NCBI RefSeq assembly: GCF_016775155.1
Contig: NZ_JAEUGD010000058.1
Location: 75,733-139,732 of the forward strand
Source: Fulvivirga marina
Lineage (GTDB): Bacteria > Bacteroidota > Bacteroidia > Cytophagales > Cyclobacteriaceae
DNA: 64,000 nt
Direction of reading: 5' to 3'
Shown here piece after piece: positions 355-1,375 of this stretch. The position numbers were made by a program, and so were the translations under genes. The stretch's first letter is position 1. Every line of letters begins with the position of its first letter. Under the pieces are notes generated by a model that saw nothing but the letters and a program-made list of their open reading frames with translations, was not told the origin of the DNA and made no database searches.

Positions 355-618
355 ATGACGCTTTCTCATAAATACAAAACCACCGAACTGTCTGGCAAAG
401 AAGCTGATTTACTATATCTACTCTACAGCTCCGAGAACCAAACTCTAAAAAGGGAGTATATCCTGAAAGTTGTTTGGGGAGATGAGGGCGATTATGTAGG
501 TCGTACGCTGGACGTTTTCATATCGAAATTACGCAAGAAACTCGTGGCCGACACAAGCCTGAAAATAATAAATATACGAGGTATAGGGTATAAATTTGTG
601 ATAGGCAACCGGGGTTAA
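355..618 (+). CDS. Winged-helix DNA-binding domain of an OmpR/PhoB-type response regulator, without receiver
   Basis: This 87-aa product matches only the C-terminal effector domain of OmpR/PhoB regulators. It has the recognition-helix region around residues 52-63 (RTLDVFISKLRKKL) and the closing wing IRGIGYKF at 73-80. Full family members are about 230 aa and carry a receiver with a phosphorylated Asp; none is encoded upstream, and an in-frame TGA stands at 343-345, four codons before the ATG. A 104-bp repeat ends just upstream. It is either a truncated remnant of a regulator broken by the repeat or a small stand-alone DNA-binding protein. No cognate kinase is adjacent. Confidence 0.6.
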   Translation: MTLSHKYKTTELSGKEADLLYLLYSSENQTLKREYILKVVWGDEGDYVGRTLDVFISKLRKKLVADTSLKIINIRGIGYKFVIGNRG

Positions 619-1087: not shown

Positions 1088-1309
1088 TTAGCATGCTGTA
1101 TTTCCAGCAGTAGCCGGACATTCAGCATCCCAGGTATACAATGGGTCCTTAATTTCACAAACGAAGGCAACACTTTGGAATGGACAAAGAACTGAGTTAA
1201 GTATCACGGCTCTTCCTCCTCCCTGAGCAGTATTTTGAGATTCTTTAGGAACCTCTGTAACGAAGCTATTAACTTTTAAATCATCGAGTTTTAACTTTGA
1301 CTTTTTCAT
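1088..1309 (-). CDS. Putative RiPP precursor, class I lanthipeptide (pinensin-like) type
   Basis: A 73-aa peptide whose N-terminus (KLKLDDLKVNSFVTEV, residues 5-20) closely fits the conserved leader of Bacteroidota class I lanthipeptide precursors (LxLxxLxVxSFVT). A GGG at 30-32 may mark the leader/core border. The 41-residue core then has Cys at 42, 51, 64 and 73 and Ser/Thr at 39, 46, 59, 67 and 71, suitable for dehydration and thioether rings. No LanB, LanC, protease or ABC exporter of this class lies in the window; they could lie left of base 1 or elsewhere. The ATG at 1309 is the only good start. The family call is by leader resemblance; ring formation is inference. Confidence 0.65.
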   Translation of the reverse strand: MKKSKLKLDDLKVNSFVTEVPKESQNTAQGGGRAVILNSVLCPFQSVAFVCEIKDPLYTWDAECPATAGNTAC

Positions 1310-1375
1310 AATTGTGATTTTTGGTTGGTTATATTCATCACAATTATAGAGGCTATAATGTATTCAGGAGATGGC

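Follow-up and report, generated by a model that had tools for sequence, protein, structure and literature searches.

The pinensins of Chitinophaga are antifungal class I lantibiotics that act on filamentous fungi and yeasts (PMC7268733, PMC9248904); they have a split LanB, and the LanC proteins of the family that includes them are related to the cyclase domains of class II LanM enzymes (PMC7268733). In a 2020 survey, Walker et al. described the class I family I 17 and LxLxKx5L precursors, with Bacteroidota leaders many of which end in Gly-Gly and are often clustered with a C39-family protease (PMC7268733). In class II, the 29 precursors of the prochlorosins (ProcM) and the 79 putative precursors of the synechococsins (SyncM) can be scattered over their genomes (PMC10783134). 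Here we describe a small gene in a 64,000-nucleotide stretch of the genome of Fulvivirga marina (RefSeq assembly GCF_016775155.1, contig NZ_JAEUGD010000058.1, positions 75,733 to 139,732), the whole of which is called the window below. With good confidence, we read this gene as coding for a pinensin-family class I lanthipeptide precursor that belongs to a dispersed set with a common leader, which would be modified in trans by one set of enzymes. The gene is laid out as follows:

1088..1309, minus strand: predicted pinensin-family class I lanthipeptide precursor gene, 73 amino acids (open reading frame, match to NF038180, orthologues under purifying selection)
1214..1309, minus strand: leader, residues 1-32, with a GGG end as the likely double-Gly site for a C39 peptidase (NF038180, leader alignment)
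1091..1213, minus strand: core, 41 residues with four Cys and five Ser/Thr (translation, Ser/Thr and Cys positions, orthologues)

The open reading frame (ORF) starts with an ATG and runs from 1309 to 1088 on the reverse strand; its leader contains KLKLDDLKVNSFVTEV, and GGG at residues 30-32 precedes the core, so that every element listed in the original prediction, which was made from the letters of the window, is present. That prediction had likened the leader to those of class I lanthipeptides of Bacteroidota, and had staked itself on a hit to a leader model for ribosomally synthesized and post-translationally modified peptides and on conservation of the Cys/Ser/Thr pattern in homologues. 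Both were found. The curated NCBIfam model NF038180 (leader_pinensin) matches residues 4-31 with 47.4 bits against a cut-off of 24 (E-value 1.3e-12), and the leader aligns with 13 further leaders from the same genome. NF038180 is the sole NCBIfam match, and Pfam returns nothing at E-values up to 10; a Nif11-type leader was seen in neither search. The pattern is kept in two other Fulvivirga genomes, F. kasyanovii JCM 16186 (G062) and the congener G072, in which the whole peptide recurs (93% over 73 residues in the former) with cores that are 90% and 83% identical and retain all four Cys. In G072 the gene lies between the same neighbours, and in F. kasyanovii it is found beside one of them, on a contig with a gap. 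Synonymous changes dominate both ortholog pairs, with ratios of non-synonymous to synonymous substitution rates (dN/dS) of 0.031 and 0.080. A Ser or Thr stands 2-5 residues before each of the four core Cys, and the possible rings would span Ser/Thr-Cys distances of 3, 5, 5 and 2 or 6 residues; the candidate C39 cut would fall somewhere within the GGG. A plasmid or phage origin of the gene is unsupported, as it has no match in PHROGs and none in the plasmid collection.

The same prediction had called the gene an orphan. The lanthipeptide-like character stands, but the word orphan understates the case because the gene is one member of a set of 15 dispersed leader ORFs. In the F. marina genome (6.78 Mb in 69 contigs, with the window on contig C54), 14 leader matches exceed the NF038180 cut-off and four are weaker. 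We count 15 leader ORFs on 11 contigs, 13 of them intact, including an intact one at C55 that scores below the cut-off; three weak matches (C63:1136747, C65:31447 and C25:169105, the last a 15-residue frame) are not counted. All but one of the 13 intact precursors combine a GG with two to nine Cys. Comparison of flanks of up to 1.2 kb around the 15 precursors (blastn, word size 9, E-value 0.001) yielded no shared DNA beyond a 26-bp repeat at the ends of C58 and C63, the one stretch that serves as flank to both members of a neighbouring pair on C6, and repeats internal to individual flanks. A mobile cassette is hence unsupported as a recent means of spreading the precursors, although older copying is possible.

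Over the family cut-offs, our profile search recovered a single LanB N-terminal domain (LanB-N) and a single LanC in this genome, both near the end of C63. The absence of biosynthetic enzymes noted for the window extends to the whole of C54, where no LanB or LanC passes the cut-off and one weak LanC match reaches 13.5 bits against the required 23.2. The maturation partner had been expected outside the window or elsewhere, with a look left of base 1 advised; it is elsewhere in the genome and not next door, with LanB and LanC on C63 and the exporter on C58. A split LanB and a LanC are thus encoded in the genome, but away from the window gene:

C63, common strand: LanC (648 residues), LanB elimination domain (344 residues), LanB N-terminal protein (994 residues) and HlyD-type adaptor (456 residues)
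C63, opposite strand, after the enzyme genes: NarL-type response regulator, sensor kinase and a 52-residue precursor

The precursor C63:1136953 is located at these LanB and LanC genes. The only Peptidase_C39 domain over the cut-off in the genome is part of an ABC exporter encoded at the beginning of C58, next to an 83-residue precursor (C58:86). C63 and C58 probably adjoin, because the exporter gene is found, at 78-85% identity, in the same 19-20 kb region as LanB in G036, G048, G035 and G013. In an alignment with the LicM2 cyclase domain, the LanC matches at the WCHG and CHG motifs, and its best NCBIfam match is TIGR03897 (lanti_2_LanM), at 259 bits, below the cut-off of 304. In the LanB tree, F. 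marina (G000) groups with G062, G072 and G061, all of them many-precursor genomes, and this grouping lends no support to a replacement of its LanB by one of the one-precursor type.

The leader and the dehydratase go together across relatives. Among 60 genomes sampled from 59 genera of the family (leader matches at E-values up to 5e-4), leaders occur in eight genomes, in counts of 75, 40, 18, 14, 6, 6, 3 and 1, and all eight are among the 12 genomes with LanB-N; were the two independent, such an overlap would have a chance of 495 in 2,558,620,845, a figure that is indicative only, given that the genomes are related. Within the genus, nine of the 15 genomes carry leaders (30, 22, 19 and 14 in four of them, one each in five), and these nine are also the ones with LanB-N. 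Counting distinct genomes of both samples, the leaders never occur without LanB-N in 73. A phylum-wide trait can be rejected, with leaders in 3 of 296 phylum genomes (F. marina included, completeness at least 90%), while the family sample has them in 8 of 60. The congener G072, assembled as one contig of 6.98 Mb, has 19 leaders, one LanB (C1:4274429) and one LanC; three leaders lie about 5-6 kb from LanB, and the other 16 are strewn between positions 124,614 and 6,216,498, with the closest of them some 695 kb from that gene. Dispersal is therefore no artefact of assembly, as 16 of the 19 leaders on this single contig are more than 690 kb from LanB. In G013, similarly, there are 75 leaders to a single LanB gene; among the matches listed, they extend from 174,699 to 5,773,483 of its 5.81-Mb chromosome, plus one on C2.

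The cores themselves show the residue order that thioether rings would need. LanC joins a Cys to a dehydrated Ser or Thr that usually lies N-terminal of that Cys. Among 68 representative cores, one for each similarity cluster of 112 cores (the C38 core left out), an unused Ser/Thr precedes 247 of 271 Cys at a distance of 2-7 residues; when the non-Cys residues are shuffled the count is 173.7 +/- 6.4, with the observed value reached in 0 of 2000 shuffles, and reversed cores give 159. The precursors of relatives enter this comparison in part (23 cores for the 75 matches of G013, 22 for the 40 of G048 and 8 for the 30 of G061). For F. marina, 48 of 54 Cys are so preceded, against 34.0 +/- 2.6 after shuffling, and the order holds in each of five genomes taken alone (0 of 2000 each; cores fetched). 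In a larger set that includes orthologues and leaves out 15 of 128 precursors for want of a GG no more than 30 residues from the leader motif, a clear excess is seen at 2-5, 2-7 and 2-10 residues.

Orthologous cores are, moreover, maintained between species. The core dN/dS over reciprocal-best pairs is 0.082 for G072-G062 (17 pairs), and 0.034 and 0.046 for G000-G062 (10 pairs) and G000-G072 (11 pairs), respectively, the last two values being rough because dS is near saturation, which counts against leaning on them. For G000-G062, G000-G072 and G072-G062 in turn, every aligned Cys is kept (31/31, 44/44 and 63/63), as are nearly all Ser/Thr (44/47, 56/59 and 105/110), with 157/195, 203/262 and 350/406 of the other core residues. 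The pairs were picked by core similarity, which favours conserved ones, and the broken copies on C38 and C1 were left out of the dN/dS values.

Based on these observations, we propose that the common leader would be bound by a single split dehydratase, whose LanB1 component (994 residues) would glutamylate Ser/Thr and whose LanB2 component (344 residues) would eliminate the glutamate, with LanC then linking Cys to dehydrated residues on its N-terminal side. For Bacteroidota peptides, supplying the producer's tRNA-Glu and glutamyl-tRNA synthetase in co-expression is reported to be of help (PMC9993889). The single ABC exporter with the C39 peptidase would cut after the double Gly and, together with the HlyD-type adaptor, export the ringed core. 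The C63 enzymes are predicted to tolerate many unrelated cores and to modify the dispersed precursors, including the window peptide, in trans under the guidance of the leader, such that the precursors across the chromosome could give one genome a varied repertoire of thioether-ringed peptides; the action on the window peptide, the formation and topology of its rings and its export are all read from the genes in this model. We regard the window gene as a true precursor and part of this dispersed class I repertoire. It also seems likely, if less firmly so, that we are dealing with a natural combinatorial system of class I, in which one LanB/LanC/C39 set finishes dispersed, unrelated cores kept under purifying selection between species, and in which the RNA element DUF805b, considered below and placed some 20 nt ahead of the start codon, ties some of the precursors, along with other double-Gly and secreted peptides, into a regulon.

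Several observations weigh against this picture. Within F. marina, the precursor at the enzyme genes themselves (C63:1136953) has one Cys, and KGAG; the leader ORF on C38 is broken, its ATG and leader being out of frame, that on C1 is broken and has neither GG nor a Cys core, and the weak matches C63:1136747 (internal stop) and C65:31447 (leader end only) are fragments. Part of the set is therefore decaying. In the family sample, four genomes with LanB lack a leader. Five of the nine leader-bearing congeners hold a single leader, and none of the six leaders of G035 is farther than about 10 kb from its LanB; dispersal is not general. Additional LanC-like genes are present in G013 (five in all), G048 (three), G062 (two) and G061 (two), a few of them beside dispersed precursors, and G061 has a second LanB, so that the notion of one enzyme set is strict in some genomes only. 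The exporter was not found in the LanB-region pieces of G019 and G022, and with F. marina in 69 contigs we infer the adjacency of C63 and C58. At 2-4 residues the Ser/Thr-before-Cys excess is weak: 242 of 458 Cys, as against 206.6 +/- 9.2 after shuffling and 228 on reversal, orthologues included.

Among the extra LanC-like genes, two that lie away from LanB are within about 0.5 kb of dispersed leader matches (G062:C186:9663-10481 and G048:C101:15617-16759), and a third, likewise away from LanB, is 3-10 kb from such matches (G013:C1:4165987-4167063). These three are perhaps specialised cyclases.

As to what the peptides are for, competition with other microbes appears the most likely end use, though as a guess that could fall either way. 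They might instead be lanthipeptides serving the producer as signals, cell-surface or developmental factors and not as weapons, which we hold possible though the less probable of the two: a NarL-type regulator and a sensor kinase adjoin the LanB operon, and the orthologous cores are highly conserved, where arms races often give sequences less conserved than these. Yet a single genome has cores too numerous and too divergent to sit well with one signalling circuit, and the pinensins are active against filamentous fungi and yeasts (PMC9248904). A more basic objection would be that the dispersed peptides are Cys-rich secreted peptides bearing disulfides or another modification, and that true lanthipeptides are limited to the one or two precursors next to the enzymes. 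G036 and G066, with a single precursor beside LanB, favour such a restriction to enzyme-adjacent genes, and the dispersed genes of F. marina, beside which other modifying enzymes were not looked for systematically, have no LanB or LanC nearby. We nonetheless consider it unlikely, as the Ser/Thr-before-Cys order is directional, with the reversed count below the shuffled mean and the order recurring genome by genome, a direction that disulfide peptides would not require; the strict company of leader and LanB-N in the family and genus samples also speaks against it. That the dispersed genes are functionless relics or duplicates drifting after the copying of one leader gene is highly improbable, and strongly disfavoured for the window gene: the two broken copies, the single-Cys copy and the two fragments in F. 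marina fit it, but the low core dN/dS with every aligned Cys kept, the same placement of the window gene in G072 and the lack of the common flanking DNA expected from recent transposition do not.

Regulation of the leader-bearing set as a whole brings in DUF805b (Rfam RF02914), of which three elements lie before precursors of F. marina:

C25:208137-208169: DUF805b, under the gathering score
C38:24157-24189: DUF805b, under the gathering score
C6:129927-129969: DUF805b, under the gathering score

Across 11 genomes at least 67 such elements occur, and the downstream sequence was read for 46 of them (pieces L063-L102 of the relatives). Seventeen of the 46 stand directly before a pinensin-leader ORF (three in F. 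marina, four in G013, nine in G048 and one in G019), 16 of these at 7-22 nt from the ORF start; the C38 element precedes a broken ORF. The remaining 29 include 21 that are followed, at a distance of 15-25 nt, by some other ORF; by eye, several of these ORFs have double-Gly or signal-like N-termini. Judging from this placement, DUF805b seems to control a regulon of secreted peptides. It is found upstream of three of the 15 F. marina precursors and is missing upstream of the window gene, and was accordingly rejected as a shared RNA element or regulator of that gene. In G012, a genome without pinensin leaders or LanB-N, a 5-kb stretch (G012:C1:3036576-3041138, L070) has four DUF805b elements, each before a small ORF; these ORFs encode leaders ending in ITGGY or VTGGY and variable cores, three of them Cys-rich, and are possibly another family of double-Gly peptides.

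The window gene has a candidate control element of its own:

1308..1347, minus strand: 11-bp perfect inverted repeat (arms 1308-1318 and 1337-1347), the downstream arm overlapping the start codon

As RNA, this repeat would fold into a hairpin of -11.1 kcal/mol, with z-scores of -3.8 and -3.4 for two frames of view, and its arms are kept in the two orthologues, in one with 1 mismatch. The repeat could mask the start codon, or a dimeric regulator could bind to it. Of the 15 precursor starts in F. marina, that of the window gene has the lowest z (-4.2), followed by C1 (-2.6) and C63:346492 (-2.0), where the start is partly paired; as the hairpin is strong for the window gene alone, we rejected it as a feature common to the precursors. 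The gene is also flanked by 26-nt direct repeats (930-955 and 1378-1403) that are 88% alike; no further copy at up to 3 mismatches occurs elsewhere in the window, and the downstream copy is less alike in congeners. Nearer the first base of the window, an ORF of 87 residues (355-618, plus strand) consists of little beyond a DNA-binding domain (Trans_reg_C, Pfam), and its F. kasyanovii counterpart is a 306-residue regulator (L150:2125-3045) with signal- and membrane-like stretches by eye. Directly before the 87-residue ORF is a 104-nt direct repeat (1-104 and 228-331), to which similar DNA is found on L150 of F. kasyanovii, away from the regulator.

The dispersed precursors fall outside the reach of the survey by Walker et al., because it required a LanC-domain protein within seven genes of the precursor, and distant prochlorosins were missed for the same reason (PMC7268733). 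Lanthipeptides are among the antiSMASH classes given for F. kasyanovii in a 2025 paper (PMC12565237); nothing on dispersed class I precursors was found in the accessible parts of a 2025 review on lanthipeptide enzyme promiscuity (PMC12328550), nor was a report of them found in the portions seen of the open-access PMC literature. Surveys confined to enzyme neighbourhoods would miss most products in genomes of this kind, as the 16 distant leaders of G072 make plain. If our reading is true, the dispersed-precursor strategy would seem to have arisen more than once, the set of separate dehydratase, eliminase and cyclase would be a new tool for peptide libraries, and the many orthologous, selected cores would make the purpose of such repertoires directly testable.

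In comparison with the described systems, the F. marina precursors resemble those of Walker et al. in having a Bacteroidota class I leader with the LxLxKx5L-type motif, and resemble the pinensins in the NF038180 leader, the split LanB and a LanC nearest to a LanM-type model. Unlike the pinensins, most of them lie away from the enzymes and their cores differ widely. With the prochlorosins and synechococsins they share the arrangement of one enzyme set and many scattered precursors (here 15 ORFs on 11 contigs), which that set would serve; enzyme tolerance on such a scale is known for class II synthetases (PMC10783134). They differ from the prochlorosins in having separate class I LanB1, LanB2 and LanC enzymes and a pinensin leader in place of a bifunctional class II LanM and a Nif11-type leader. 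As its enzymes are a separate LanB-N, LanB-C and stand-alone LanC and not a class II LanM synthetase, the set would work like the prochlorosins without being a member of that group. Thus, a dispersed layout known from class II in marine cyanobacteria appears here in class I, and we read the F. marina set as the class I counterpart of the prochlorosin layout, in which dispersed precursors would be served by one tolerant set of enzymes.
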